Part shown: positions 1 to 35,869 of the stretch, piece by piece | Numbering within the stretch: the first letter of the stretch is position 1 | Layout: every line of letters starts with the position of its first letter | Assembly: GCF_024714475.1 (NCBI RefSeq) | Contig: NZ_JAMZMI010000002.1 | Coordinates: forward strand, 744,001 to 808,000 | Source: Marinoscillum sp. MHG1-6 | Lineage (GTDB): Bacteria > Bacteroidota > Bacteroidia > Cytophagales > Cyclobacteriaceae | Length of the DNA stretch: 64,000 nt | Reading direction: 5' to 3' | Notes under the pieces: generated by a model | What the model was told of the DNA's origin: nothing | Database searches by the model: none | Seen by the model: only the letters and a program-made list of their open reading frames with translations | Program-made: the position numbers and the translations under genes

Positions 1-792
1 AATAATCAAAACGTCAGCAGTAGCATAGTATCCTGGAAGATCATCAGCATCCACCTTGCCCAAAAGATGTACTCGTTCATTTGACCGAACTTTGTTGAAA
101 TACTGTTCCGTTGTATTCAACATCATTTCACCGTCAGCCAAAGGTCCAACGAAAATAAAGTCGGCATTAGGGTTCTCCGAAATGGCGTCACTCAAACTTT
201 TCCAATCTAAATAAGGCATATTCAAATTACCGGCATATAGGATCTTCACCGATTGCTCACCGGGTAATTCAATTGGATCAGAAATTCCTCCATCATTATA
301 ACCATGATGAATAAAGTGAGCATTCGGATTATAGGTTTTAAGCCTCTCACCTATGAATTGAGTGGTATAAAAGCACACATCTGCCGTACCAGCAGCCCTG
401 GCTGTTTCAAAATTTTGATTGAGATCAACGATATGAGAAATATTATATGTTCGGAGCAAGCTAAAATCAAAAAAAACCGAATTATCGAAAGACCATATAA
501 TATCAAATCGTCGTTTGCAATAATTCTCAATCTTCTTCAACCTATTACGGATCAATCGACTGGAAATAAAGGAAGGCAATTTTCTCAATCCTTTCATGAA
601 TTTAGGATAATCGAGAATACTGAGATTAACATATTCGCTTTCAGAAAGCTTCCAATTTCCCTTGGGTGGATTCGCAAAAACAACGTGGTTACCCCGTTCG
701 GCCAGTACCCTGGCATAATGGTGCTTGGACACAAAAATATGATCCCAGGGCTCTGGGGAGATTAGAAGGATGTTTTTCCCATTGGGCTGCAT
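1..792 (-). CDS. Glycosyltransferase, partial (3' end beyond window)
   Basis: An open frame runs from an ATG at 792 through 264 codons to the window edge without a stop, so the C-terminus is missing. The protein starts MQPNGKNILLISPEPWD and continues with KHHYARVLAERGN and a VVFANPP strand. This is the usual N-terminal Rossmann layout of GT-B glycosyltransferases. A second Rossmann half begins near residue 190 with KILYAGNLN, followed by DFIFVGPLADG, RVHLLGKV and ADVLII, typical of GT4-like enzymes. The stop of the plus-strand-adjacent GT61 gene is only 11 bases away on the same strand, so it belongs to the surface-glycan block. Donor and acceptor sugars cannot be told from sequence. Confidence 0.8.
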   Translation of the reverse strand, partial: MQPNGKNILLISPEPWDHIFVSKHHYARVLAERGNHVVFANPPKGNWKLSESEYVNLSILDYPKFMKGLRKLPSFISSRLIRNRLKKIENYCKRRFDIIWSFDNSVFFDFSLLRTYNISHIVDLNQNFETARAAGTADVCFYTTQFIGERLKTYNPNAHFIHHGYNDGGISDPIELPGEQSVKILYAGNLNMPYLDWKSLSDAISENPNADFIFVGPLADGEMMLNTTEQYFNKVRSNERVHLLGKVDADDLPGYYATADVLII

Positions 793-803
793 CACCGAAT
801 TCT

Positions 804-1958
804 TTATTCTAAAATTTTGCTGACAATCTCCTTAACAAGATGTATATCAACTATAATATTTTCGTTTTCTGTTTGCTGGCAAGCAACTACATGGTATTGA
901 TGTCCATAGTAATGCGCAATCTGATAAAAAGTACTAGTGCTCTCCGTATACCTTCTTTCAGGAAACAACTCCACCACATCTAAACTATCAGAAAAGATTG
1001 TGTTTGTGAGAGCCGCTCCGTGAGCCGTTACAACAATCGAGGCCTCTTGAAACAACTGGATTTGATCCAAAACCTTCATGTTTGAGAGTATTACCATATC
1101 AAAACGATATTCCTCCAACATTCTCAACAACTCGATTTCATTGACCACTTTCCTTCCTCCCGCATCAGATCTTGAAACATAAATTCTCTTATTCAATTTT
1201 GTACTTCTTGGCAATCTATTCCTTAACCAATCAAACCCAGCTTTTGATAAAATATGAGTTTTGGCCCATTTTGGATCTTCGGAAGGCACTTGAAGGTATC
1301 TACGAGATGTTACCAGCAGACTATCCACTTTAGATCGGTTTGAAGTCCATGTAAAAATTTCTGAACCAAAGCCAAGTGCCTCTAGAAACTCATATTGGTA
1401 ATTTGGAGCATCATTATCAATAATGATTTTTGGCCTTTCATGAGTCAATCTCTCAAAAACCTCATATGCCTCCAACATTGGTAAAAGATCATTCACCCAG
1501 TGATAATAATTGAGAGAGAGTGAATCAACAAGAGAAAACGCTGAGCCAACGGATTTTGAAGCTTTAAATAATCCAGGGAACATAACATATTTAGCATCTC
1601 CAGACCTCAACAGGTATCCAAGTGAATTACCCGAAGACTCCAAAATGAGACTCCCATTACAATCTATTGCCAAACAGCGTTTACCTCTCAACTCCGCATT
1701 TCTAATATTTACATAAAATGGTTTATCAATTCTTTGTGTTTTTTTATAATCATTCAGCCAACCAAATTTCTTCTCAAACTTTTTTGGGTAAAAGTTGTGC
1801 GTACGACCATGAAAACTAACAGCTTGTTCAATTGAGTAATTATTAACCTGATATTTTTGAATCAATGAATTTCTATCAACAACCTGTCCCGAACTGTTAA
1901 CCCACCTCTCCCATAGCACTTTCAACAATCTCCTATATACGATTAAAATAAACTTCAT
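804..1958 (-). CDS. GT61-type (DUF563) glycosyltransferase
   Basis: This 384-residue protein fits the GT61/DUF563 family. The C-terminal half carries the family pattern: IYVSRSDAGGRKVVNE, then a helix-rich stretch, then VVTAHGAALTN and DVVELFPE. The middle has SLNYYHWVNDLLPML, matching the conserved Y-H-W/F-D-x-L-P region of these enzymes. No signal peptide or clear membrane segment is present beyond a mildly hydrophobic N-terminus, so it probably works on the cytoplasmic face on lipid-linked glycan. It ends 3 bases before the start side of the next gene upstream on the same strand, so the two are almost certainly co-transcribed. The sugar specificity is unknown; bacterial GT61 enzymes are usually found in capsule or O-antigen loci. 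Confidence 0.82.
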   Translation of the reverse strand: MKFILIVYRRLLKVLWERWVNSSGQVVDRNSLIQKYQVNNYSIEQAVSFHGRTHNFYPKKFEKKFGWLNDYKKTQRIDKPFYVNIRNAELRGKRCLAIDCNGSLILESSGNSLGYLLRSGDAKYVMFPGLFKASKSVGSAFSLVDSLSLNYYHWVNDLLPMLEAYEVFERLTHERPKIIIDNDAPNYQYEFLEALGFGSEIFTWTSNRSKVDSLLVTSRRYLQVPSEDPKWAKTHILSKAGFDWLRNRLPRSTKLNKRIYVSRSDAGGRKVVNEIELLRMLEEYRFDMVILSNMKVLDQIQLFQEASIVVTAHGAALTNTIFSDSLDVVELFPERRYTESTSTFYQIAHYYGHQYHVVACQQTENENIIVDIHLVKEIVSKILE

Positions 1959-22740: not shown

Positions 22741-24345
22741 TTATTCATAGGCAGGATTTTGCGGATATTCTCCGGCATCCAGAGATATTGCCGAAAGAGG
22801 AATTGGCCTTAGAATCTTATAATTTCCATTGGCTCCAAGGAATGGATCTATTCCACCATCCACGAGGGTTTTGATATCCGGGTTTCGAACTTTGGTGTAC
22901 TCCATCAACTTACCAGTACGTTTCAAATCCAACCACCTGAATCCTTCACCAGCCAGCTCGCGCGCACGTTCCTCAAGGATGAAGTCAATATCTACCGAGG
23001 CAACCGTACCCGCTCCGGCTCTTGCTCTAACAGTGTTGACTCTATCAATAGCATTACCACTATTTCCTGACTGAAGGTAAGCCTCAGCTGCTATCAAATA
23101 AGTCTCTCCCAATCGTGCCAGATACAGGTCATGAGTGTATTGCACACTTGTTGTTCGCACCCGGTCAAATTTTCTCAAACCAGGGAAATCATCCTGATTC
23201 AAAGGGTCCCACCAGTGGGCGTCCAAAGGAGAGATCACGGTTCCTGCTCTGTTGTCAGGATCTTCGGCCCTCCATGTTGCGGTATCGGCCAATTGAGTAG
23301 CAGTACGCGGATAGTAATAATTAACCGTACTGTTGTCAGGATCAATTGCCCAACCAGAGTACGGACTGGTTCTTACACTGAGGAAGGTTCCCTCGAATCT
23401 CTCATCATTATCTTCAAATAAAGTGAAGAGATACTCGGTTGGATGCAGCACATTTTTCTTGCTTACCCCATCATCGCTTCCCTGAACGAGAGGCCCCCAT
23501 GGGTAGTCCCAATTGTGTGCTCCTCCGTTTTGAGTAGAGGAACCGGCGTATTGTATAGACCAAAGCACCTCCTCATTGTTATCATTATCATAGGCAAACA
23601 ACTCATCAAAGCCTAGGTTAAGACCCTGTCCATTAATAGCAGCATCCGCCATTGTAGCTGCATCTGCGAAGTCTGATGCAGCCCCATAGTCCTCATATCC
23701 CCTCGTGAGATAAACTTTTGCCAGAATATGCTGTGCGGTACGTTTAGAAACCCTCCCGAAGTCAATTTGCTCCAATGGCAAAATTTCAATGGCCGCTTCC
23801 AGCTCATCAATGATGAACTGATAAACATCCGCTGCGGGAGCCCTGTCAAAATGAACGATTGGAGTCGTAATCAGATCCTCCACTAACGTGACATCACCAA
23901 AATTCTGTACCAGCATAAAGTAGTAGAAGGCCCTAATCACTTTCACTTCTCCCACTCTCACTTCCAGATTGGGAAATGCTTCCGTCTGGGTGGAATATTC
24001 CAACGCGAGATTTGCCATCTGAATACTCTGATAGAGACTGCTAAACAATCGCTCTACATCACTGCTTCCGGGAGTGAGCGTTTGATAGCTCGAAAGTCCC
24101 AGTGGCACCTCCTGATGAGCACCGAAAAATAGGTCGGTTCCTGCACAGAACACAAACGGTGTTGGCTGATAAACATCACGAAGCGATGAATAAGCCGCAT
24201 TGACCAGCCCTTCATAACCTGCTTCGGTGTTGTAGTAATTTTCAGCGGTTGTATTACCAAGGTTTTCTTCATCCAAAAACCCTGAGCATCCGGAGATCAT
24301 TGTCCCCGCAAAAACTATATATATAAATAATCTTATGCTTTTCAT
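22741..24345 (-). CDS. susD-like: SusD/RagB outer-membrane glycan-binding lipoprotein
   Basis: This 534-residue protein is the SusD partner of the TonB-dependent transporter encoded just upstream (4-base gap). The lipobox FAGTMISGC puts the lipidated Cys at 20, followed by FLDEENLGNTTAENYYNT. TPR-type helices typical of SusD follow (VIRAFYYFMLVQNFGDVTLVED, TAQHILAKVYLTRGYEDYG). The RagB-type C-terminus has LGETYLIAAEAYLQSGN, AIDRVNTVRARAGAG and EERARELAGEGFRWLDLKRTG, ending in the usual ISLDAGEYPQNPAYE tail. It forms the lid over SusC and binds the oligosaccharide, which from context is a pectin fragment. Confidence 0.97.
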   Translation of the reverse strand: MKSIRLFIYIVFAGTMISGCSGFLDEENLGNTTAENYYNTEAGYEGLVNAAYSSLRDVYQPTPFVFCAGTDLFFGAHQEVPLGLSSYQTLTPGSSDVERLFSSLYQSIQMANLALEYSTQTEAFPNLEVRVGEVKVIRAFYYFMLVQNFGDVTLVEDLITTPIVHFDRAPAADVYQFIIDELEAAIEILPLEQIDFGRVSKRTAQHILAKVYLTRGYEDYGAASDFADAATMADAAINGQGLNLGFDELFAYDNDNNEEVLWSIQYAGSSTQNGGAHNWDYPWGPLVQGSDDGVSKKNVLHPTEYLFTLFEDNDERFEGTFLSVRTSPYSGWAIDPDNSTVNYYYPRTATQLADTATWRAEDPDNRAGTVISPLDAHWWDPLNQDDFPGLRKFDRVRTTSVQYTHDLYLARLGETYLIAAEAYLQSGNSGNAIDRVNTVRARAGAGTVASVDIDFILEERARELAGEGFRWLDLKRTGKLMEYTKVRNPDIKTLVDGGIDPFLGANGNYKILRPIPLSAISLDAGEYPQNPAYE

Positions 24346-24349
24346 GATC

Positions 24350-27300
24350 TTAGAATTTGATGTTAGTACCTAGCTGATAAATAGAGAATGAAGTATTTGT
24401 GGCATCTACACCAGACATACTTGCACCTGCCCATTCTGGATCAAAACCTTCATATTTCGTGAATACGAATGGATTGAACGCATTGAAATAAACCCGAACT
24501 TCTGAGATACCCACCTTACCTAGTAGGTCACGAGGTAAATTGTATCCAAGGGTAATGTTCTGGATACGAGTGAATGAAACATCCTTGTTGTATCCCGGAT
24601 ACCCATAATCCTCAGCATCTTCTCCATAATACTGCCCCATGTAACTCGGCTGAGGGTACTCATTGGTATACCGTGGACCCGAGATTGGATTATCTCTTTT
24701 ATAATAAGGCACATCAAGAATAACCTTGCTATTGAAATCGGTAAACTCTCTATGGAAAGGGCTGTAAACCAACATACCTTGTTTCGTATAAATGGTAGCA
24801 GACAAATCCCAATTCTTGTATCTGAATGTAGTTGAGAAAGTACCAATCCAGTTTGGAGCCGGTGAACCTAAAACTTTCATATCATTATCAATATCTATCG
24901 CTCCATCACCATTCAGGTCCTTTACTTTGGCTGTACCTTCCAGTGCTTGCTTATCTGCCTCTGATTCATAGGTGTCTGAAGCCTGCCAAACACCATCATA
25001 GACCATAGAGTAGATTACGTCAACAGGTTCACCAATAAACCACCTGTTTGGAACATCATCTTCCTTCGCTCCATAGAGATCAACGATTTTATTGATGTTT
25101 TTTGTGAAAATGAAATTGGTCTCCCATGAAAAATCATCACGATCAATATTCACAGTACGGAGCTGTACTTCAACTCCTTTGTTGCTCACCGAGCCTACAT
25201 TGTCAATCATGGTACCCCAACCTGTAGGCATTGCCAGCTTTCTCTCCATGAGCAAATCCAGCGACAACCTGTCGTAAACATTGACTTCACCACTTACCCT
25301 ACTTCTAAACAAACTGAAATCTGTTCCAAGGTTCCATTCTCTTGTTCGCTCCCAGGTCAAATCCTTATTGGAAATGGCACTCGGTACAAATCCGTCTGCA
25401 GTGCTTCCATCCCAATCATAATAAGCCTGTCTATTTAAGGATGACTGTGTTGAATAAGCAGGAATATTGTTGTTGCCCGTATAACCAAAACTCAAACGCA
25501 ATTTCAGATTGTCCACTATCGTATTGGAAAGGAAAGCCTCCTCGGACATTCTCCAGGCAACAGCTGCTGATGGGAAGTAGGCCCATTTGTTGTCCTCAGC
25601 CAACTTAGAAGACCCATCCCATCGTACCGTAGCCGTAAAGTGATACCGGTCTCTGAATGAATAGTTTAATCTGTTGGTAAATGAGAGCAAAGTATTTTTA
25701 CTAAATCCTGTACTCGCATCCCTCTGAGGAGCACTTTGAGTATTATACCAAAGTGATTCAAACGGCACATCTCTACCATAAGCAAATGCATTCTCCGTTC
25801 GGTTCAATTGAGAAGATTGAATAAAATCATAACCCATGCTGTGTTCTCCAAACTTTTTGGAAATGTTCAACTGGTTGTCCCATATGTAAGACAAGAAATT
25901 ATCATTCCACATTCTTGCTACGGAAATCGATCTGGTAGCAAAGCGATCAAAATACTCACCTGACCTTACGAATCTTGCATTTGGTGAAAAGGTAGACTGA
26001 AAGCTTAACCATTCAACAGGCTTGTATTTCAGGTAGAAATTGGAAATGATATAGTACTCTTCCACATTATACTGAGAATTGCTTTCGAGGTAGGCGTAAG
26101 GGTTCACGTTGCCGGAAATACCCACCATCGGTGACTGGATGTAATTTCCATCAGCATCTTTGGCCGGAGCGTAAGATGGCATTCTGAAAATCTGACGAGT
26201 ATAGCCCTGTCTGGAAACCAGTTCTCTTTCCGAAAACGCGAGGTTGACATTGGAGCCTACAGAAAACATCTTATTCGGTCTTGCATCAATACTTGCCTTG
26301 AAATTATACTTCTTGTAGTATTGGCCCTTGGCATTTCCATCATCACCCTGATATCCAAAACCAACTACGTAGCTTGAAGTTTCACCACCACCAGCAGCAG
26401 ATACAAAATGGTTTTGCTGGATACTTGGCTTAATCAATTCATCAACCCAATCAGTACCTCTTCTCTTAGCTAGGGCATCACCCCAATAACTGCCAATCCC
26501 ATCTTCATTGGTGATGTATGGAAATCCATAAAGCGTAGATGGTACAATGGTATTGCCCTGAACAAGGTCTCTGGCCATTTGCCTGTCTTTATTCCACATT
26601 ACACTTTCATCATAACTATTGAGGAAATCAGGCATGTTGCTCACCTTTCGCAATCCTACGAAACCGGAATAGTTCACTGTAGTTCGCTTATTCTTAACTC
26701 CGGCTCCTGACTTAGTGGTAACTATTACCACACCATTGGAACCACGAGATCCATAGATCGCCGTAGAAGAGGCATCCTTTAATACATCAATTCGCTCAAT
26801 ATCATTTGGGTTGAGGAAATTGATATCATCCGTCATAACCCCATCTACCACAAATAGTGGCGAAGCTCCATTCAGAGAATTAGCACCCCGGATTTGAATG
26901 GTAAAGCCGCTACCCACTGTACCAGTTCTCGGAGAAATATCCACACCGGCTATATTTGTTTGCAGTGCTCCCATCGGACTGGTGGCTCCCACTTTTGTGA
27001 GTTCCCTGTTACCGACAGAGGCCACAGCACCTGTGAGGTCTTTCTTCTGAATGCTTCCATATCCCACAACAACCACCTCTTCAAGGCTTGTGAAATCGGG
27101 TTTTAAGGTCACATTCAATTCAGTCTGCCCGTTAATAGGCACCTCCACAGATTGGTAACCAACAAATGAGACCGTGAGTAACAGATCGGATCCGGCAGAA
27201 ATATTCAGATTATAGTATCCATCAAAATCTGTTACCGTGCCAACGTTTGTCCCTTTAACCAAAACTGTAGCACCTGGTAGTCCTTCGCCGCTTTCATCTG

Positions 27301-27718
27301 TCACCCGACCACTTATCGGGGTCTGTTCGATTACTACTTCGATACCGTCGGTTTGGTGGGACTTTACGCTTATGCGATTATTTACCTGCTTAAATCCAAC
27401 ATTCGCTTGTTTAGAGATGTCCATCAATAAGGATTCGACCGTATTCTCACGGGCCTGCAGGCTTAGTTTTATTTCATTGTCAAGGTTTTCTCTGTTGTAC
27501 ACGAAGACATAATCTGAGTTTTTTTCAATCAGCTTAAATGCCTTCTCAAGGTTGATTCCCTCAGCAGTGAGACTAATTTTCGCCTCCTTTACACTTAATA
27601 CACGTTGGGCATTGCCTTCACTCGCCAATAGGGCGTTGATGATGAAAGCATAGACAACCAAACCGTAAACAGAAACTTTTCCAAACATTACAATGAAGGG
27701 TAGAAGTTTATTTTTCAT
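24350..27718 (-). CDS. susC-like: SusC/RagA TonB-dependent transporter with STN signalling domain
   Basis: This 1122-residue importer carries oligosaccharides across the outer membrane. Domains in order: signal peptide (1-37), STN domain about 48-112 (ISLTAEGINLEKAFKLIEKN), a carboxypeptidase-regulatory-like domain about 130-210 (VSFVGYQSVEVPI), plug (VVVVGYGSIQKKDLTGAV; IERIDVLKDASSTAIYGSRG; NGVVIVTTKSG) and a large beta-barrel ending in YQLGTNIKF. The STN domain is the one that contacts FecR-type anti-sigma factors, and those genes lie immediately upstream, so this is a transducing transporter. Gene order sigma-fecR-susC-susD matches other regulated pectin loci. Confidence 0.97.
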   Translation of the reverse strand: MKNKLLPFIVMFGKVSVYGLVVYAFIINALLASEGNAQRVLSVKEAKISLTAEGINLEKAFKLIEKNSDYVFVYNRENLDNEIKLSLQARENTVESLLMDISKQANVGFKQVNNRISVKSHQTDGIEVVIEQTPISGRVTDESGEGLPGATVLVKGTNVGTVTDFDGYYNLNISAGSDLLLTVSFVGYQSVEVPINGQTELNVTLKPDFTSLEEVVVVGYGSIQKKDLTGAVASVGNRELTKVGATSPMGALQTNIAGVDISPRTGTVGSGFTIQIRGANSLNGASPLFVVDGVMTDDINFLNPNDIERIDVLKDASSTAIYGSRGSNGVVIVTTKSGAGVKNKRTTVNYSGFVGLRKVSNMPDFLNSYDESVMWNKDRQMARDLVQGNTIVPSTLYGFPYITNEDGIGSYWGDALAKRRGTDWVDELIKPSIQQNHFVSAAGGGETSSYVVGFGYQGDDGNAKGQYYKKYNFKASIDARPNKMFSVGSNVNLAFSERELVSRQGYTRQIFRMPSYAPAKDADGNYIQSPMVGISGNVNPYAYLESNSQYNVEEYYIISNFYLKYKPVEWLSFQSTFSPNARFVRSGEYFDRFATRSISVARMWNDNFLSYIWDNQLNISKKFGEHSMGYDFIQSSQLNRTENAFAYGRDVPFESLWYNTQSAPQRDASTGFSKNTLLSFTNRLNYSFRDRYHFTATVRWDGSSKLAEDNKWAYFPSAAVAWRMSEEAFLSNTIVDNLKLRLSFGYTGNNNIPAYSTQSSLNRQAYYDWDGSTADGFVPSAISNKDLTWERTREWNLGTDFSLFRSRVSGEVNVYDRLSLDLLMERKLAMPTGWGTMIDNVGSVSNKGVEVQLRTVNIDRDDFSWETNFIFTKNINKIVDLYGAKEDDVPNRWFIGEPVDVIYSMVYDGVWQASDTYESEADKQALEGTAKVKDLNGDGAIDIDNDMKVLGSPAPNWIGTFSTTFRYKNWDLSATIYTKQGMLVYSPFHREFTDFNSKVILDVPYYKRDNPISGPRYTNEYPQPSYMGQYYGEDAEDYGYPGYNKDVSFTRIQNITLGYNLPRDLLGKVGISEVRVYFNAFNPFVFTKYEGFDPEWAGASMSGVDATNTSFSIYQLGTNIKF

Positions 27719-27843
27719 AAATTTGATATGGTTTAGTGAAACAATGGATCACTGAATTTGGGTCTGAGAGATATATGTTGGCGCATGTTACTCAGGCCCT
27801 TTTTTATTTTCGCAAAGTCAGTGGGCAATGCTATGGGTTTATG

Positions 27844-28938
27844 TCATGGGCTTATTTGTTTTGGGTTAAATTCAAGGGTGATTCTTTTCCCGTCAATTTT
27901 ATATTGAAAATCGAGGGTATAACTTAGGCTTTCCAACACATTGGATAAATAGTCATCTTCAAACTGACCGGTACATAACAGGTCCTTGCTTTGCTGTCTT
28001 TGTCCCTTTACTTCGAAAGAAACATCATACCAACGCTCAAGGACATTGAGCGCCTGATCCAATGGTGTGTCTTTAAAATAGATGATCCGATTTCTCCAGA
28101 GGGCCTTCTCCGAAAGATTGAAAGTTTGCTCTTTAATGGATCTGCCATTACAAATAGCCAATTCTCCGGGATATAATATAGCCTCCTCAACCTGCTTAGA
28201 TTGGTTGGATACCACACGCACTTTCCCGGTCATTAAACTTACTTCCTGAGTCGCGCCTTCATAAGCATTCACATTGAATGATGTTCCTAATGCTGTAGTA
28301 CTCATGTATTCCGTCACTACCGTAAATGGTCTTGAGGCATCTTCAGCCACTTCAAAAAAGGCCTCGCCAGTCAGGTGAACTACCCGATCATTTGTATTAA
28401 ACCTGGAGTCATAGGATATTTTACTTTCTGAATTCAGGAAGACCTTGGAGCCATCAGGAAGAAATACGGTAGACTTCTGCCCTCTAGGATTTTCCTTTTC
28501 TGTAATGGTAAATTCGGCAACCTGGTTTACTTCCACAGGATTCCAATCGACTACAATAGGCAAAGAAGCCATGACAACCAGGGCAATGGCTGCCGCGATA
28601 CCATAATAAAGACTCCTGGATCTTCTGTTTACATCCGGGTATCTAGCTAAAATAGACTGTGGCCCTAGAGGAATAACACTTGGCTCAACATCTTCAGATA
28701 TAGAAGATTCAATATTATTCCATATTTCATCTTCGACCTCGACCGAGGGACTATACCTATACCGCGACAAGCCCAAAAGAATTTCACGGGCCATTTTCAC
28801 ATCCCCTACTTTCTGTTGATTTTCATTCAGCCAGTTTTCCCAAAATAAATTGGCACTACGATCAGGGTTCAGCACCCAACTTTTAAAAAAGTGGTCTGCC
28901 ACAAAATCCTCAACCTTATAATCGCTATAGTTCGTCAT
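27844..28938 (-). CDS. fecR-like: FecR-type anti-sigma factor
   Basis: This 364-residue single-span inner-membrane protein holds the ECF sigma factor until SusC signals. The N-terminal cytoplasmic part (1-105) carries the sigma-binding helices. A membrane segment spans about 111-130 (YYGIAAAIALVVMASLPIVV). The periplasmic FecR domain follows with GQKSTVFLPDGSKVFLNSES, VHLTGEAFFEVAEDASRPF and TALGTSFNVNAYEG, and a C-terminal DUF4974-like STN partner domain has DTPLDQALNVLERWYDVSF. It sits between the sigma gene (165-base gap) and susC (125-base gap). Together they form the classical three-part cell-surface signalling unit. Confidence 0.95.
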   Translation of the reverse strand: MTNYSDYKVEDFVADHFFKSWVLNPDRSANLFWENWLNENQQKVGDVKMAREILLGLSRYRYSPSVEVEDEIWNNIESSISEDVEPSVIPLGPQSILARYPDVNRRSRSLYYGIAAAIALVVMASLPIVVDWNPVEVNQVAEFTITEKENPRGQKSTVFLPDGSKVFLNSESKISYDSRFNTNDRVVHLTGEAFFEVAEDASRPFTVVTEYMSTTALGTSFNVNAYEGATQEVSLMTGKVRVVSNQSKQVEEAILYPGELAICNGRSIKEQTFNLSEKALWRNRIIYFKDTPLDQALNVLERWYDVSFEVKGQRQQSKDLLCTGQFEDDYLSNVLESLSYTLDFQYKIDGKRITLEFNPKQISP

Positions 28939-29103
28939 CGAGTGATAAAAATTATCGCTTTGATATTAAGGGGATGATTTTGACTGATTCTATCCAGGAA
29001 TCGATGAAAAAAGCTGAAAGTTTATGACTGATAATGATTTTTAGATTAAATCACCCTTTTCGCCGCATATAAACAGCCATTTTATTGAAAATATAGCAAT
29101 GAC

Positions 29104-29694
29104 CTAGCGGGGAAGGCTTTGCCTGAGCGAAGAAATAGCTCTCCAGACGAGCCTATAGACAGATTGTATGCTCATTGACAAGATAGCAGAGGCTTCTTCA
29201 TAACTTTTCTCCTCGAAGAAGATCAGCATAATGACTTCTCGTTGTCGAGGAGGTAAATCATTAATTAACAATTTAATCCTGTTTCTTCTTAATGACCCAT
29301 CCTGCTCACTGATCATTGACATTTCCTGGGAAGGGATAAATTCCAACTCAACATTTTCAGGAGCAGTATTGTGATCATATCGCTTATCCTCCTCGATGAT
29401 TGAAAGCAATTTATGTCTTAAGGACTTGATCAGGTATGACGCAGGATTATCAACATCACTTAGGTTTGAACGTCTCTGCCAAAGGTCTACAAACAGCTGT
29501 TGTATAGCATCCTTAACAGCTGGTTCCTTTGGATGCATGGTCATGCCATAATTGTATAACTGGGCGAAGTGCGAGCGGTATATCTGTTCAAAAGCCTGCC
29601 GATTCCCAGACTTAAACTCAAGCCACAACTCGGAAGGGGAAAACTTGCTTTGATATGTATTATGATATGACTGCAAATCGGCTGAGTTAAGCAA
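29104..29694 (-). CDS. ECF RNA polymerase sigma factor (Bacteroidota susCD-associated)
   Basis: This 196-residue sigma factor has region 2 (ELWLEFKSGNRQAFEQIYRS, LYNYGMTM, AIQQLFVDLWQRR, SYLIKSLRHKLL) and region 4 (INDLPPRQREVIMLIFFEEK, YEEASAILSMSIQSVYRLVW), the normal two-domain ECF layout. No ATG is available: the frame is closed upstream by a TGA at 29710-29712, and the first Met codon lies inside region 2. The likely start is the TTG at 29694, or the TTG at 29676. It presumably activates the downstream susCD operon when FecR releases it. Confidence 0.9.
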   Translation of the reverse strand: MLNSADLQSYHNTYQSKFSPSELWLEFKSGNRQAFEQIYRSHFAQLYNYGMTMHPKEPAVKDAIQQLFVDLWQRRSNLSDVDNPASYLIKSLRHKLLSIIEEDKRYDHNTAPENVELEFIPSQEMSMISEQDGSLRRNRIKLLINDLPPRQREVIMLIFFEEKSYEEASAILSMSIQSVYRLVWRAISSLRQSLPR

Positions 29695-29891
29695 TATTAT
29701 TTCAACAATTCAACCTATAATATGAATTGTATTATTAACACTTTAACAATATTACGGACAAAATTTATTAAATGTCAAGTCATTAGCTCTTAAGTGAAAG
29801 ATTAAATGTGAAAAACACAAATAATAATATTCCTATTGTTCCTTCACCCTTCCCACCTCCTGCCTCTCAAGGTTTCCTCAGATTTTAAGTG

Positions 29892-29899
29892 TACCTTTG
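29892..29899 (+). promoter_or_regulatory. Probable -7 box of the T9SS pectate lyase gene
   Basis: TACCTTTG is a perfect match to the Bacteroidota -7 consensus TANNTTTG, 45 bases before the ATG at 29945. No good -33 TTTG/TTG stands at the standard distance, so the promoter may need an activator or the local ECF factor. Confidence 0.4.
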
Positions 29900-29944
29900 A
29901 CACGCCTAAGTTCTTCGATTTTGTTTTAATATCAATTCCGGAGC

Positions 29945-32797
29945 ATGCAACAACACTCAAAAACCCCATTGCACAGATTAAAAAATCTCTGCTTATCATC
30001 ACTTCTCATTGCGACTTTATTTCATGCAGCCCAGGCACAGGAACCTGCAGTAGCCGTTGACTTCAATTTTTCCGGACGTCAGGAAGGTGAAGTACACGAA
30101 CCCATTTTCAATTCATGGATTATTGCCCCGGGCACTTCAGATAGCCTAGCTATTTCAGGTGTTGAATTTAAAGTAGAGGCAGTTGGCTATACTTCCAGTT
30201 GGTATAAAACTGCCATGCAGTCGCCATACTTTGCCAGATTAGTTAGTGATGGATTGCTGTCAGGGGATGTGACCATCTATATCAAAGGGCTAAAAGCGGG
30301 GACGCATAGTTTCGTGGCATACCATAATACTTTTTCGAGTCCTGAGACAAACGTTTTCGCGCCCATCGATATTTATGCCCAGGGGGTAAAAATCCATGAT
30401 GATCTTGAACAAAGTAACCGGGTTACAGCAAACGACCTTGTTGCGACGTCGTATGTCGAGTTTACCATCGCAGTGGGAGAAACTGCAGCCATCAGGTATG
30501 TTGTAGATACAACTCCAATTGTAGTTGAGGGGAAAACCTATAATTCAACTGTACACCTGAATGGATTCAAACTAAATTCCGGCGATCCTAAGAGGCAGGC
30601 CAAATTACCCATCCCACTTCACACTGATGAACATGCCAATGGAGATACCGGCAATATTGATCTATACTGGTCTCCAATCAATAGCGCACTTTCCTCAAAT
30701 GTCTATTTCGGCACAAGCGAATCGGCATTGCTCACTGCTACCACAGAATCAGCTGAATTTATCAAAAATACGACCGAAACGACAACTAATGTAACGCTCG
30801 GTAACGGGAATAATAGATATTACTGGCGTATTGATCAGGTCTTTGACACCGATACAGTAAAGGGTGAAGTCTGGAATTTCAAACCTCGACAAATCGCCTT
30901 TGAAGGTGCAGAAGGTTATGGACGTTATGCCCAGGGCGGACGTGGCGGCAAAGTAGTACACGTGACCAACCTCCATGATAATGGTCCGGGAAGCTTGCGA
31001 GAGGCAGTCGAAACAGACCTCGGCCCCAGAACTATCATTTTTGATGTCTCGGGGATCATTACCCTTGAATCTCGCTTGAGCCTAAATGACGATTACGTAA
31101 CAGTAGCCGGCCAAACATCTCCTGGAAAAGGAATTTGTATCAGACAGGCACCTTTCGGGTTGAGCGGGGCTGACGATTGCATCGTTCAAAATATACGCGT
31201 GAGACTGGGATCTGGTCCAACCTATGACGGCATGGGAATGTCAGGGTGCAATCACAGCATTATTGACCACTGCTCAATCAGTTGGACCATTGATGAGGCA
31301 TTCAGTTCCAGAAATGGCTTGAACATAACTTTGCAGCGCACATTGATCAGTGAGGCACTCAATGCTGCCGGACATCAAAATTACCCTGATGGAGCCAGAC
31401 ATGGATACGCAGCTACCATTGGCGGTAGTATTGGTAGCTTTCACCATAACCTACTAGCTCACAACTATGGGAGAAACTGGAGCCTGGGCGGCGGTTTGGA
31501 CGGATCACTCTACTATGCCGGTGAATTAGATATTTTCAATAATGTAGTCTACAACTGGGGAGGTAGAGCAACCGATGGCGGAGCGCATGAAGTCAATTTT
31601 GTTAATAACTATTACAAAAAAGGAGCGGGCACTTCTCAAAGTACCGTTTTAAAAGCTCAACTAGAAGGTACTGGTAAAGGCTCTCAAAGCTATTATTACA
31701 CCGGCAACATACTCGAAAACACTAATGGCTCGCTCGCCTGCGATGGATCAGATAACACCTGCGCCCGGACCTATGTTACTTCAGGTGGGCAGGTAGTGGA
31801 CTGGGAAGTTTTTGTTAACAATCCCTTCTTTCCATCTCAAGGAAATATCCAGACTGCCAATGACGCCTACAAAGACGTCCTCTCCGATGTAGGATGTGTC
31901 CAACCTGTTTTTGACGATCATGATATAAGGATCATCAACGAAACAGTCAACGGAACCTTCACCTATCGAGGAAGTCGAACCAACCTACCCGGTATGCCGG
32001 ACGCGCATGAAGACGTTGGAGGATGGGAGAATTACCCGGAACTCATGCGGCCGGAGAACTATGATACCGACCAGGACGGATTACCTGACTGGTGGGAATT
32101 CGAAAAAGGTTTGAACTCTTCATCCGCTGAAAATGATCTGTCAGATGCCAATGGCGATTTGAATGGTGATGGCTATACCAATTTGGAAGATTACCTGGTC
32201 TGGATGGGGACACCGCATTTCATGATCCCTACAGACAGTTTTATTACTATCAACATGCTCTATTACACCAGGGGCTATACGGAAAGTCCTGTATTTACCG
32301 TTGTGTCCTATGAAAACTGTACCGCGGAAATTCTTGGAAATGATGAGGATCTAAAAGTAACTGCTGGCACAATCGGGCTTGGTACAGTAACCTTCAAAGT
32401 AACTGATGCAGAAGGCAGCTCGAAAGTCATCAACATCAACTTTGCAATAGGAATCACCATTCCAGCTTCAGTGATTATCGCAGAAGACCCTGTGGATACT
32501 ACGAACACAGAAATCCCGGTTGATACCACTGACACCACAGAAACATTAAATCTGGGAAAAAATGAGATGCCCAGACTGTTCCCGAACCCTACTTCAGGAA
32601 CCCTAATGGTATATCATCCAAGTGGCATGAATTCCATTCAGGTAACTAACTTACTCGGTGAAAAGGTATTGGAAATCAACACTCTCGACCACCCCGATAG
32701 CATCACCATTGACGTCTCAACACTAAGCAAAGGCATTTATTTCATATTGACTGGTCATCCTTCTCAAGCAGAAAAAATGAAATTCGTCAAGAGATAA
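29945..32797 (+). CDS. Large multidomain PL1 pectate lyase with T9SS sorting domain
   Basis: This 950-residue secreted enzyme begins with a signal peptide cleaved after AAQA (31). Residues 33-205 form a beta-rich module of unknown family; 215-318 are fibronectin-III-like (IDLYWSPINSALSSNVYFG, RYYWRIDQV). The PL1 lyase domain spans about 318-690, with AEGYGRYAQGGRGGKVVHV, RTIIFDVSGIITL and SIIDHCSISWTIDEAF. A calcium-type repeat follows near 705 (DTDQDGLPDWWEFEKG, DLNGDGYTNLEDYL). The last 75 residues are a type A T9SS sorting domain (RLFPNPTSG, ITIDVSTLSKGIYF, MKFVKR). It is therefore exported to the outside or cell surface. It is divergent from the sigma factor gene, so probably in the same regulon. 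Confidence 0.93.
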   Translation: MQQHSKTPLHRLKNLCLSSLLIATLFHAAQAQEPAVAVDFNFSGRQEGEVHEPIFNSWIIAPGTSDSLAISGVEFKVEAVGYTSSWYKTAMQSPYFARLVSDGLLSGDVTIYIKGLKAGTHSFVAYHNTFSSPETNVFAPIDIYAQGVKIHDDLEQSNRVTANDLVATSYVEFTIAVGETAAIRYVVDTTPIVVEGKTYNSTVHLNGFKLNSGDPKRQAKLPIPLHTDEHANGDTGNIDLYWSPINSALSSNVYFGTSESALLTATTESAEFIKNTTETTTNVTLGNGNNRYYWRIDQVFDTDTVKGEVWNFKPRQIAFEGAEGYGRYAQGGRGGKVVHVTNLHDNGPGSLREAVETDLGPRTIIFDVSGIITLESRLSLNDDYVTVAGQTSPGKGICIRQAPFGLSGADDCIVQNIRVRLGSGPTYDGMGMSGCNHSIIDHCSISWTIDEAFSSRNGLNITLQRTLISEALNAAGHQNYPDGARHGYAATIGGSIGSFHHNLLAHNYGRNWSLGGGLDGSLYYAGELDIFNNVVYNWGGRATDGGAHEVNFVNNYYKKGAGTSQSTVLKAQLEGTGKGSQSYYYTGNILENTNGSLACDGSDNTCARTYVTSGGQVVDWEVFVNNPFFPSQGNIQTANDAYKDVLSDVGCVQPVFDDHDIRIINETVNGTFTYRGSRTNLPGMPDAHEDVGGWENYPELMRPENYDTDQDGLPDWWEFEKGLNSSSAENDLSDANGDLNGDGYTNLEDYLVWMGTPHFMIPTDSFITINMLYYTRGYTESPVFTVVSYENCTAEILGNDEDLKVTAGTIGLGTVTFKVTDAEGSSKVININFAIGITIPASVIIAEDPVDTTNTEIPVDTTDTTETLNLGKNEMPRLFPNPTSGTLMVYHPSGMNSIQVTNLLGEKVLEINTLDHPDSITIDVSTLSKGIYFILTGHPSQAEKMKFVKR

Positions 32798-32885: not shown

Positions 32886-33767
32886 ATGAAACGAAAGGAC
32901 TTCATTAAAACCTTAGGAGGATTTGCAGCTATGACTACACTGGGAGGATTCAAAACAATTACAGACACCCTGTCAAGAGATGACAAATTGATGCCGGTAT
33001 TATTCATTGGACATGGTTCTCCAATGAACGGGATTGAGAATAATGAATTTAGCAACTACTGGAAAAAGTTGGCTAATGAAATACCTGAGCCATCTGCTGT
33101 TCTTGTGATTTCCGCACATTGGCTAACCAGGGGAACTCATGTCACTGCAATGGATAACCCTAAAACCATCCATGACTTTGGGGGGTTCCCCAGGGAACTC
33201 TTTGAAGTGCAGTATCCTGCACCCGGAGATCCCTTATTGGCGAAAGAAACTGCAGAGTTAATTCTAAGCACTAATGTGGGATTGGATCATGATTGGGGAC
33301 TGGATCACGGAACCTGGACGATAGTCAGGCACATGTATCCGGACGCACACATCCCCGTGTTGCAGCTTAGTATTGACTATCACAAACCGGCCTCCTACCA
33401 CTATGCTCTGGCCAGTGAGTTGGCTCAGTTACGCAAAAAGAGGGTATTGATTATTGGCAGTGGAAACATGATCCATAACCTGAGAATGGTAGATTGGAAA
33501 AATATGGAGGTGGATAATTATGGCTTTGACTGGGCGCATGAAATCAATGCCAAATTCAAGGAGAAAATATTGAACAAGGAACATCCTGATCTCATTGATT
33601 ATAAGAAACTGGGACCTGCAGCTAATTATGCTATCCCAACTCCCGATCACTATTACCCTCTGATCTATAGCCTGGGATTACAACAGGACAAGGAGGATGT
33701 AGACATCTTCAACGACAAGTATGTAGGTGGTTCTCTTAGCATGACATCTGTCCGCATAGGAAAGTAA
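32886..33767 (+). CDS. ygiD-like: Extradiol ring-cleavage dioxygenase, YgiD/LigB family (4,5-DOPA dioxygenase-like)
   Basis: This 293-residue non-heme metal enzyme contains the LigB-fold signatures VLFIGHGSPMNGIEN, VLVISAHWLTRG, TIHDFGGFPRELFEVQYPAPG, GLDHDWGLDHGTWTIVRHMYP, VLIIGSGNMIHNLR and YAIPTPDHYYPLIYSLG. The His residues at the metal site (GHGS, AHW, DHGTW, PDHYYP) are intact. The first 20 residues (MKRKDFIKTLGGFAAMTTLG) resemble a Tat/Sec-type leader of the MKRRDFIK kind but with KRK in place of the twin arginine, so export is possible but uncertain. E. coli YgiD opens L-DOPA; the true substrate here is unknown. Its 3' end is closed by the hairpin at 33786-33813. Confidence 0.9.
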   Translation: MKRKDFIKTLGGFAAMTTLGGFKTITDTLSRDDKLMPVLFIGHGSPMNGIENNEFSNYWKKLANEIPEPSAVLVISAHWLTRGTHVTAMDNPKTIHDFGGFPRELFEVQYPAPGDPLLAKETAELILSTNVGLDHDWGLDHGTWTIVRHMYPDAHIPVLQLSIDYHKPASYHYALASELAQLRKKRVLIIGSGNMIHNLRMVDWKNMEVDNYGFDWAHEINAKFKEKILNKEHPDLIDYKKLGPAANYAIPTPDHYYPLIYSLGLQQDKEDVDIFNDKYVGGSLSMTSVRIGK

Positions 33768-33785
33768 CTAAAATCCAGACACAAA

Positions 33786-33813
33786 AAAACCCTTCGGAAA
33801 TCCCAAGGGTTTT
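33786..33813. terminator. Bidirectional terminator between ygiD-like and T9SS-tail genes
   Basis: A 9-bp stem (AAAACCCTT / AAGGGTTTT) with a 10-base loop is flanked by A-rich and T-rich sides, so it can end transcripts from both the plus-strand dioxygenase gene and the minus-strand mini-protein gene. Confidence 0.8.
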
Positions 33814-33832
33814 AATTGAATAAGATTATAAA

Positions 33833-34207
33833 TTATTTTTTTAGAAACTTATACGCTTGTTTGAATCTTAAGAACTCATCTTTTACCACCAGGAAGTAAT
33901 ACCCAGTAGCGTAGTCCTTAATAGATATGCGATATTTTCCAGCACCAATCTCCTCGGGCTTCACCTTGATCTCATTTCCAATGATGCTGTGCAACTCAAA
34001 CTCTGTGTTCTGTAAGGTGCTGTTTTTGATGCTAACAATAAGATAGTCAACAGCAGGGTTTGGGTAAAGCTCAATTTTGTTCGTAGCATCCAATGATTCT
34101 ACCACGAGATTATTCTCTGCGGAGATCACAGGACCACTAGCTTCCTGGGCATAGGTTGCCAGGGAAAATAGAAGGCTGAACGATATAATGATGAGCTTAT
34201 TGTGCAT
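33833..34207 (-). CDS. Orphan T9SS C-terminal sorting-domain mini-protein
   Basis: The protein has only 124 residues: a signal peptide (MHNKLIIISFSLLFSLATYAQ), a spacer of about 25 residues, and then what looks like a complete type A T9SS sorting domain (IELYPNPAVDYLIVSIKN, FELHSIIGNEIKV, AGKYRISIKDYATGYYFLVV, ending FKQAYKFLKK). No cargo domain is present between signal and tail. It is not a broken gene: the frame is intact and starts at an ATG with its own terminator downstream and 141 bases of leader region upstream. The function is unknown; a minimal surface-attached or secreted peptide is possible. Confidence 0.75.
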   Translation of the reverse strand: MHNKLIIISFSLLFSLATYAQEASGPVISAENNLVVESLDATNKIELYPNPAVDYLIVSIKNSTLQNTEFELHSIIGNEIKVKPEEIGAGKYRISIKDYATGYYFLVVKDEFLRFKQAYKFLKK

Positions 34208-34348
34208 TTACATACAAATTACGGAAATTTTTAATGAATGTTTAACACCTTCACGGATTTTTCACAGAAAAAACATACAAAATCACATTTTTTAACAAAT
34301 GACATAATTACATTATATCAATAAATCATTGTGTTTTAAGCACTTAGC

Positions 34349-35869
34349 CTAATTCACGTCATTTTTAAATGAAGTCAGTGTTATTATCGCTTCGGGTAAC
34401 CATTCGATAAGATCAGACGCCATCAGGCTATTAACACCCAACGTATCCGCTGCAAGATCTCCCGCTAACCCATGCAAATAGACACCCAGAGAGAGCGCTT
34501 GAAATGGCTCATAATTTTGAGCGAGCAACCCGGAGATAATTCCTGTAAGCACATCCCCACTACCTGCTGTAGCCATTCCGGGATTACCCGAAGGATTAAA
34601 ATAAGTTCTCCCTTCAGCATCACACACCGCAGAATTAGCTCCTTTCAACACCACATGCAAATGGTGTATTTTACAAAATTCCTGAAGCAGTTTAAGCTTT
34701 TCAAAATCATCTGACCAGCCCCCCACCAATCGACGGAATTCTCCCGGATGGGGCGTAAGGATTGACCCCTCCGGAACTTTGGCTAATAACTCCGGATTCG
34801 CACCGATGATATTCAGTGCATCCGCATCTAGCACTACCGGATTTTTTGTCCTGGTCAACAGCTCTTCCAATGCCTTTCTGGTAATTTCTCCCTGACCAAT
34901 ACCAGGGCCTATTCCCATCACATCGAAATCAAAATCAGTGGTTACCTCAGAAATGCAATTCTGATGAATGTCAGCTTCAACCATGGCTTCAGGTAGCCCA
35001 ACCTGAAGGATCCTCACACCACTCTTAGGAACGTGCATCATCAAGAGTCCGGCTCCTGAACGCATGGCTGCCCGCCCGCACAGTAAAGCTGCGCCCATAC
35101 TTCCGTACTTTCCTGCCACAATCAACAGCCGACCGGCATCACCTTTATGCATAAATTTTTTTCTTGGCTTGAGCAAAGCGGCAAAATCAGACTTCTGATT
35201 ATAAAAAAACGCCGTATCCTGACTATTGATAAACCCTTGATGAAGACCAATGTCCTCAATGAACCAATCTCCAACATAATCCTGGTAGTCGGGCTGAAAA
35301 AAGACCAGCTTTGGTGTTTGAAAGCTAATCGTAGCCCAGGGCCTAATAATAGCCTCATGCCCGGCGGGTTGATCAGCAAATAGTCCGGAAGCGATATCCA
35401 CGGAAATTACCCTGGCTCCCGCTCCATTAATATGATGGATCAAATCCTCGAACAATCCCTTTGGGGGCCTACTCAGACCTGACCCGAAAAGCGCATCAAT
35501 TACAATCTCCCTATTATCCAGAAGAGGAAAATGGCGCACTGTCTGAATAAAGTTCATACTTTCCTGAGCCGGGTACCTCTCGTGGTTGATCACAAAATCT
35601 TGCGACGCCTTAGTCACGTCTCCGATGATAAAAATGCTCACGCTCCAACCTTGCTCTGACAATATTCTTCCGATCGCCAAACCATCTCCTCCATTATTGC
35701 CGACTCCGCAAAAGATAACCATCCTCCGCCCCCTATCAACAATTTTAAGAAAGCGATCCACAAAGGCATGCGATGCACGTTCCATTAACTGAATGGAAGG
35801 AATGGGCTCGTTTTGAATTGTATAAGCATCAGCTGCCCGGATTTGCTCTGTTTGGAGGATCGGGATCAT
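34349..35869 (-). CDS. nnr: Bifunctional NAD(P)HX epimerase / ADP-dependent NAD(P)HX dehydratase
   Basis: This 506-residue enzyme repairs hydrated NADH and NADPH. The N-terminal YjeF_N epimerase domain (1-220) has VIFCGVGNNGGDGLAIGRIL, VIDALFGSGLSR and VISVDIASGLFAD. The C-terminal ribokinase-like dehydratase domain has GDAGRLLIVAGKYGSMGAAL, VMGIGPGIGQGE, VLDADALNI, ILTPHPGEFRRL and GNPGMATAGSGDVLTGIISG. The fused order matches E. coli Nnr (YjeF). It follows nuoD on the same strand by 51 bases, so it is probably transcribed with the complex I genes; that fits its role in keeping the NADH pool clean. Confidence 0.95.
   Translation of the reverse strand: MIPILQTEQIRAADAYTIQNEPIPSIQLMERASHAFVDRFLKIVDRGRRMVIFCGVGNNGGDGLAIGRILSEQGWSVSIFIIGDVTKASQDFVINHERYPAQESMNFIQTVRHFPLLDNREIVIDALFGSGLSRPPKGLFEDLIHHINGAGARVISVDIASGLFADQPAGHEAIIRPWATISFQTPKLVFFQPDYQDYVGDWFIEDIGLHQGFINSQDTAFFYNQKSDFAALLKPRKKFMHKGDAGRLLIVAGKYGSMGAALLCGRAAMRSGAGLLMMHVPKSGVRILQVGLPEAMVEADIHQNCISEVTTDFDFDVMGIGPGIGQGEITRKALEELLTRTKNPVVLDADALNIIGANPELLAKVPEGSILTPHPGEFRRLVGGWSDDFEKLKLLQEFCKIHHLHVVLKGANSAVCDAEGRTYFNPSGNPGMATAGSGDVLTGIISGLLAQNYEPFQALSLGVYLHGLAGDLAADTLGVNSLMASDLIEWLPEAIITLTSFKNDVN

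Follow-up and report, generated by a model that had tools for sequence, protein, structure and literature searches.

What can a T9SS sorting domain (CTD) be for when it has no cargo to address? The question is raised by a small minus-strand gene in the window, the whole stretch of 64,000 nucleotides of Marinoscillum sp. MHG1-6 DNA analysed here. An earlier note, made from the letters alone, described an intact frame of 124 residues leading from a signal peptide to a complete type A CTD with no cargo, without stating the strand, and that description holds. The mini-protein is a complete type A T9SS CTD behind a putative Sec signal peptide, scoring above both curated cut-offs: 40.3 bits against the Pfam entry PF18962 (residues 47–111; cut-off 27) and 31.7 bits over the full length of the NCBIfam profile TIGR04183 (cut-off 23). 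At the N terminus a predicted helix at residues 4–18 is followed by TYAQ, and a signal peptide of Sec type is clear by eye. There is no cargo domain ahead of the CTD, just some 25 mostly disordered residues (Table 1). The same genome encodes the translocon and the sortase, SprA and PorU both being matched over cut-off. An Rfam scan of positions 33700–34450 found no RNA family, and the best match of the mini-protein in PHROGs, at E = 0.011, falls on the signal peptide.

Table 1. Features of the mini-protein gene and its surroundings, in window coordinates
Feature	Position	Strand	Basis
CTD-only mini-protein	33833-34207	-	124 aa, ATG start, TAA stop; orthologues exist
Putative signal peptide, residues 1-21	34145-34207	-	sequence; predicted helix; cleavage TYA-Q inferred by eye
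Variable linker, residues 22-46	34070-34144	-	pLDDT below 50 at 21-41; least conserved segment
Complete type A T9SS CTD, residues 47-124	33836-34069	-	TIGR04183 positions 1-72 of 72; fold matches to solved T9SS CTDs
HSIIGN, residues 73-78	33974-33991	-	conserved form of CTD motif B in the family
GYY, residues 102-104	33896-33904	-	CTD motif D form particular to the family; middle Tyr in 0 of 87 other tails
nnr-type gene (NAD(P)HX epimerase and dehydratase domains)	34349-35869	-	conserved upstream neighbour; domain matches
Promoter-like CGTAATTTGTA, just 5' of the start codon	34213-34223	-	core motif seen by eye upstream of 10 of 12 orthologues
Hairpin then U-run, likely shared terminator	33786-33813	-	fold energy of 33778-33832
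Convergent dioxygenase-like gene, downstream of the mini-protein gene	32886-33767		domain matches

CTDs are plentiful in this genome, where TIGR04183 has 73 matches, 72 of them over cut-off, in frames that span 124 residues (the mini-protein, shortest of the 73) to 4739. The next shortest measures 167 residues from stop to stop and 158 from its first start codon. This second smallest CTD frame (L248, positions 610–1086, minus strand) has a short N-terminal region and is absent from the six matches that the profile of CTD-only relatives described below makes in the genome. Five cargo CTDs are among the profile's matches here (1.2e-12 to 9.2e-10), which is to be expected of any CTD. Searching with the single protein brings up nothing else in its own genome at E ≤ 0.001; an orthologue scores 1.2e-48.

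The shortest CTD frame in the genome might be what is left of a larger cargo protein after truncation, and the earlier note had proposed that full-length secreted orthologues would identify it as a truncated remnant. The single-protein search at E ≤ 0.001 matched 46 of 59 genomes, the source included, with cargo CTDs among the matches. The 30 loci that it returned each hold a short frame with a hydrophobic N terminus, of 102–138 residues from start codons picked by eye. All but three divergent sequences (L027, L029 and L030) entered an alignment of 27, from which a profile was built. Across the 59 genomes this profile gave 31 matches at E ≤ 7.1e-19 in 30 genomes, and every one of the 31 is a short frame (104–186 residues stop to stop); after a gap, the next match is a frame of 2218 residues at 1.3e-15. 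The strong matches come from 28 of the 37 genomes drawn from the window's family and two from other families of the order, with one match in each of 29 genomes and two in the remaining one. A scan of named genomes yielded 19 loci, 15 of them CTD-only frames, in Marinoscillum, Reichenbachiella, Ekhidna, Imperialibacter and various MAGs, and four of them large proteins with weaker matches.

The sequences also bear the mark of purifying selection. Two close pairs have omega values of 0.046 and 0.051, and two wider pairs, whose dS exceeds 1, have 0.073 and 0.184; synonymous sites are saturated in four wider pairs, including all three that involve the window. SprA is over cut-off in 58 of the 59 genomes, the 30 with a strong match all belonging to these 58, and all 27 aligned members match TIGR04183 at E ≤ 0.01. 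The mini-protein thus belongs to a family of orthologous short proteins, each with a hydrophobic N terminus, a variable linker and a CTD, that evolve under purifying selection in T9SS hosts. The existence of orthologues excludes a chance frame, and since relatives keep the gene short and conserved it is not a broken leftover. The idea of a truncated remnant, to which we give hardly any credence, is refuted by the short orthologues, the purifying selection and the lack of a parent match in the genome itself; the earlier view of an independent gene is borne out.

The flanks speak to the claim that the gene has its own leader and terminator. A motif CGTA(A/C/T)TTTG lies within 70 bases 5' of the start codon in 10 of 12 orthologues (by eye, two of the 12 being very close relatives), in keeping with a leader of its own; we take it to resemble the -7 element of Bacteroidota. 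A scan for consensus sigma-70 promoters gave one site, fewer than in shuffled sequence. Downstream, the stretch 33778–33832 folds at -15.8 kcal/mol (z -3.06) and contains a hairpin and U-run, so that calling it the gene's own terminator is reasonable, but, lying between two convergent genes, it can serve the dioxygenase-like gene as well. None was listed at the gene by a consensus terminator scan with a loop limit of 8.

Gene order was compared at 30 loci, those of the window, of 26 of the 27 other family genomes (G004 was left out) and of three genomes from a draw across the phylum, on maps of frames of at least 85 residues, which smaller genes would escape. Judged by eye, nnr adjoins the mini-protein gene upstream on the same strand in 20 of the 30 and is no more than three genes away in 22; on the other side, 11 loci have asnS at a distance of up to three genes, and one or both are near in 25. 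The identities of asnS and rpoN come from a profile scan at one locus. In the window, genes for NADH dehydrogenase subunits lie beyond the nnr-type gene. There are no T9SS genes among the immediate neighbours. In several relatives a gene for an outer-membrane beta-barrel protein (PF13568; cluster c9, 11 members, for example L044 1856–2611) is found past asnS and rpoN, a few genes further out on the far side of the mini-protein gene. Elsewhere in the window, at 22741–32797, SusD-like, TonB-receptor, FecR and sigma-factor genes stand beside a T9SS-tagged protein of 950 residues that resembles the pectate lyase PelZ at 89 bits, under the model cut-off of 840; this may be a pectin-use locus.

Which part of the mini-protein does selection preserve? 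With segment borders set by us, the mean fraction of the commonest residue in the alignment stands at 0.26 for the linker, against 0.64, 0.65 and 0.69 for CTD motifs B, D and E. Across 19 genomes the linker, taken as total length minus 101, varies from about 1 to 35 residues, and in L018 the signal peptide runs almost straight into the CTD. A surface peptide, one of the roles that the earlier note had floated, is accordingly disfavoured. For comparison with another CTD we turned to PorU because a model of M36 metallopeptidases was over cut-off in only two of the 59 genomes. Over the last 80 residues in the 19 genomes, median pairwise identity is 36.2% for the mini-protein and 30.0% for PorU, whose CTD is said to be longer; the 500 residues of PorU ahead of its CTD reach 42.3%. 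The mini-protein is the more conserved of the two CTDs in 117 of 171 pairs, or 110 of 136 when two divergent genomes are removed, these pairs sharing genomes and PorU being the single other CTD compared.

Motif D has a signature of its own. Its middle residue is Tyr in 26 of 30 family members by script and in 29 by eye, the script having chosen a later GxY in L016, L017 and L021, and L022 reading GHY. No such Tyr occurs in 87 other tails, which are GxY-bearing ends of long frames from three other searches and perhaps include some flanking genes. The IIGN of motif B is conserved within the family, Lys123 is invariant in the alignment, and Glu85 and Asp110 are kept in 89% and 85% of its rows, figures that describe conservation within the family only. 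Gln21, which would follow the cleavage site, is invariant in all 27 rows; among the divergent loci it is present in L027 and absent from L029 and L030. With an unconserved linker, a CTD more conserved than that of PorU and the GYY signature, these comparisons suggest that the CTD itself is probably the functional part.

The family is not universal even among close relatives. Nine of the 37 family genomes (G001, G008, G018, G020, G021, G022, G026, G031 and G034) lack a strong match, and all nine have SprA and PorU. The nnr gene was found in eight of them, and the roughly 1.5 kb that follows it held a diverged copy in none of the eight, as judged from ATG-initiated frames of at least 70 residues. 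G008 is only 83% complete, and G022 has a weakly matching short CTD frame at another locus. Among the eight genomes of the family in the phylum draw, five match and three (G133, G168 and G249) do not at 1e-9, with 14 candidates scored in each. Since seven near-complete family genomes with SprA and PorU do without it, the mini-protein is unlikely to be a core T9SS component, and it is dispensable, family genomes with a T9SS living without it.

The predicted fold places the CTD in wider company. AlphaFold2, given 15 sequences, returned a model with mean pLDDT 73 and pTM 0.56, in which the linker is poorly defined, strands span residues 44–123 and the block 51–124 reaches pLDDT 82–91. Foldseek found nothing for this model at E ≤ 0.001; its first hit was 4g5a, a DUF3244 structure, at 1.9e-3, and its sixth the CTD of NucA in the T9SS translocon (8glk) at 7.1e-3 with a target TM of 0.74. 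VIA-align gave Z scores of 9.6, 9.3 and 9.3 for the DUF3244 structures 3d33, 4g5a and 3sd2 (77–87 residues, rmsd 2.3–5.1) and of 8.9, 8.3, 8.3 and 8.1 for the T9SS CTDs 8qb1, 8glk, PorZ 5m11 and RemA 8gl6, rows up to one Z apart counting as tied and unrelated Ig folds following close behind. Searching solved structures by sequence, the best E was 0.13 for the single protein, and the profile reached ten chains at E ≤ 1. Seven of these lie between 2.7e-4 and 0.048, including the named T9SS substrates 8glk, 8glj and 8qb1.

The link to DUF3244 (PF11589) is more tenuous at the level of sequence. The Pfam model gave no listed match to the window protein at E ≤ 1, touches six of the 27 aligned members at E ≤ 0.1 with a best value of 0.0069, and hhalign of the family against three DUF3244 proteins gave a probability of 17.6%; with that figure set against suggestive signs from fold and profile, DUF3244 was rejected as a proven sister family. 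Separately, the same model passes its own cut-off on T9SS CTD frames of large proteins and does so at L240 (G000:C19:371079-371237), overlapping a TIGR04183 match. DUF3244 and the T9SS CTD may be remote homologues. In G293, a genome with no SprA match, there are three stand-alone DUF3244 ORFs of 124–128 residues (L244, L245 and L246), each with an ORF nearby that we read as regulator-like (218–309 residues; no Pfam match at 0.001), and one of the three weakly matches Por_Secre_tail (9.6e-5).

Similar genes occur elsewhere in the phylum. Among 296 genomes the profile matches at least 51 at E ≤ 1e-9, the counts being lower bounds since 14 candidates were scored per genome. The best match is a CTD-only frame of 115–158 residues in 16 of the 51; in G320 the frame measures 278 residues stop to stop, but the start of its relatives' CTD-only genes is present. 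G275 has a frame of 87 residues and the other 34 have longer ones. All 51 fall, compared by eye, among the 227 genomes with SprA over cut-off, which is due mainly to ordinary cargo CTDs. In the family of G191, which from its gene content we would guess to be Flavobacteriaceae, a profile of two proteins matches 12 of 119 genomes at E ≤ 9.5e-33, all short frames of 113–143 residues, the two sources included; ten weaker-scoring genomes have a short best match in six cases and a long one in four. There polA lies directly upstream in eight of 11 mapped loci and within three genes in all 11, its identity resting on a profile scan at one locus, and rplM and rpsI are near in some. Other CTD-only genes stand beside hemB with an ABC transporter, or beside a 23S-rRNA-methyltransferase-like gene with a peroxiredoxin-like gene; neighbours were identified from one representative each, and the last two fall below curated cut-offs. 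Four genomes (loci L250, L251, L252 and L253) carry tandem CTD-only pairs of 102–109 residues, one frame measuring 135 from a longer start, that adjoin a gene of 325–338 residues; at a guess, one of these may be of the Fjoh_0547 type discussed below.

The idea of a single ancient CTD-only gene common to all these families was not upheld: with the profile of the window's family, the CTD-only proteins of other families score about 29–42 bits and do not rise above cargo CTDs, which reach 50.6, among the 60 of 101 matches listed, and the loci differ. The groups being inseparable from cargo CTDs by sequence, repeated independent origin and one ancient gene are equally likely.

What, then, does the mini-protein do? 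The explanation we favour, tentatively and at somewhat less than an even chance, is that it is a conserved, functional, cargo-free T9SS CTD protein that acts through its free CTD on the T9SS machinery. It would be exported to the periplasm by Sec and then handled as a type A substrate, through the SprA translocon and the PorV shuttle. With next to nothing attached to it, the free Ig-like domain is where the function would lie. That domain might bind the machinery that handles CTDs (PorV, PorM or the PorU/PorZ complex) or swap its last strand with other CTDs. The outcome, which is the least certain step, may be that T9SS traffic is tuned, sensed or primed, somewhat as by PorA in Porphyromonas gingivalis. 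A regulator of T9SS components or a sortase-substrate decoy, both raised in the earlier note, are conceivable.

The same anatomy would also suit an ordinary small secreted or surface Ig-like protein, a single domain whose CTD fold is both address and product and which serves in a surface coat, adhesion or ligand binding with no control over the T9SS. Many unrelated Ig-like folds align nearly as well, and CTD-only genes sit at different loci in each family, as a general-purpose surface protein might. Against this, conservation peaks in motifs B, D and E, the last two reportedly relevant to contacts with PorM and PorV, and the near-constant single copy per genome is unlike an expanding surface family; we regard this reading as somewhat unlikely, albeit the strongest of the rivals. 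Alternatively, evolution may have turned the fold into a free-standing protein of the periplasm or outer membrane that is independent of the T9SS, perhaps as in DUF3244. The tie between DUF3244 structures and T9SS CTDs among the best aligned folds and the DUF3244 model's reach into some family members agree with this, as does the reported secretion of Fjoh_0547, in the excerpts available of its source, without SprA or PorV. Two members lack YPNP: L027 (1375–1788), which has a charged C-terminal extension and scores 19.7 with TIGR04183, under the cut-off of 23, and L025 (1402–1761), which nevertheless passes at 25.7; some members may therefore bypass the T9SS. The matches of all 27 aligned members to TIGR04183, the low hhalign probability and the window protein's lack of a listed DUF3244 match leave this idea unlikely.

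If instead PorU cut off the CTD and a linker of some 20–30 residues were the product, the protein would be a device for peptide delivery. Its parts are ordered as in any T9SS cargo and most members have a linker, but that segment is the least conserved, varies widely in length and is nearly missing from L018, and we think this quite improbable. The favoured reading, action through the free CTD, may extend further. Conceivably, though we hold it rather doubtful, CTD-only proteins form a recurrent functional class in which the CTD, turned into a free ligand, acts on the PorV shuttle and translocon by competition, priming or reporting, so that cells gauge T9SS load through a substrate without cargo, with DUF3244 domains as relatives that outlived loss of the T9SS.

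A CTD is usually treated as an address label, and the family would imply an independent function for one CTD at least; the sorting tag of the mini-protein probably has such a job. It also offers a ready minimal substrate for studies of cargo recognition, release and counting by the T9SS, and it illustrates how a distinct conserved family can go unnoticed under the name 'T9SS type A sorting domain-containing protein'. Our search of the open-licence PMC literature found no description of a conserved CTD-only family, and excerpts of one paper have T9SS effectors ranging upward from 'very small proteins' (PMC10202324).

Among known systems, DUF3244 proteins share the stand-alone, secreted-type Ig-like domain and provide, from Bacteroides and relatives, the closest solved folds; they differ in occurring in a genome without a SprA match and in having no listed direct match to the window protein. 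Fjoh_0547 of Flavobacterium johnsoniae is similar as a CTD protein with almost no room for cargo, 112 residues long, though it is likened here by description and not by sequence; the accessible portion of the source places it in the medium of sprA and porV mutants (PMC7712824), which is a difference and puts T9SS routing of such small proteins in doubt. The CTDs of PorU and PorZ are said, in a partly available source, to stay on after secretion (PMC11285876), but they sit on large proteins. The isolated CTD of RgpB dimerises through swapping of its C-terminal strand, according to excerpts of PMC4804311, and excerpts of another paper describe PorV as recycled or present in excess, an argument against simple titration by the mini-protein (PMC12618676). 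PorA (PGN_0123) of P. gingivalis is, like the mini-protein, a small CTD protein with a part beyond the usual cargo role: in the available sections of PMC7712824 it acts upstream of PorXY-SigP, keeps its CTD in one surface form and influences T9SS expression. It has 246 residues, however, with an N-terminal FimH-like domain (fragment Q28-R171; PMC7712824, in part) for which the mini-protein, with its short spacer between signal peptide and CTD, has no room. A further likeness is to the type A T9SS CTD itself (TIGR04183/PF18962), of which the mini-protein is a complete example with the same fold; normally a tag behind cargo, the domain here makes up nearly the whole mature protein and carries GYY.
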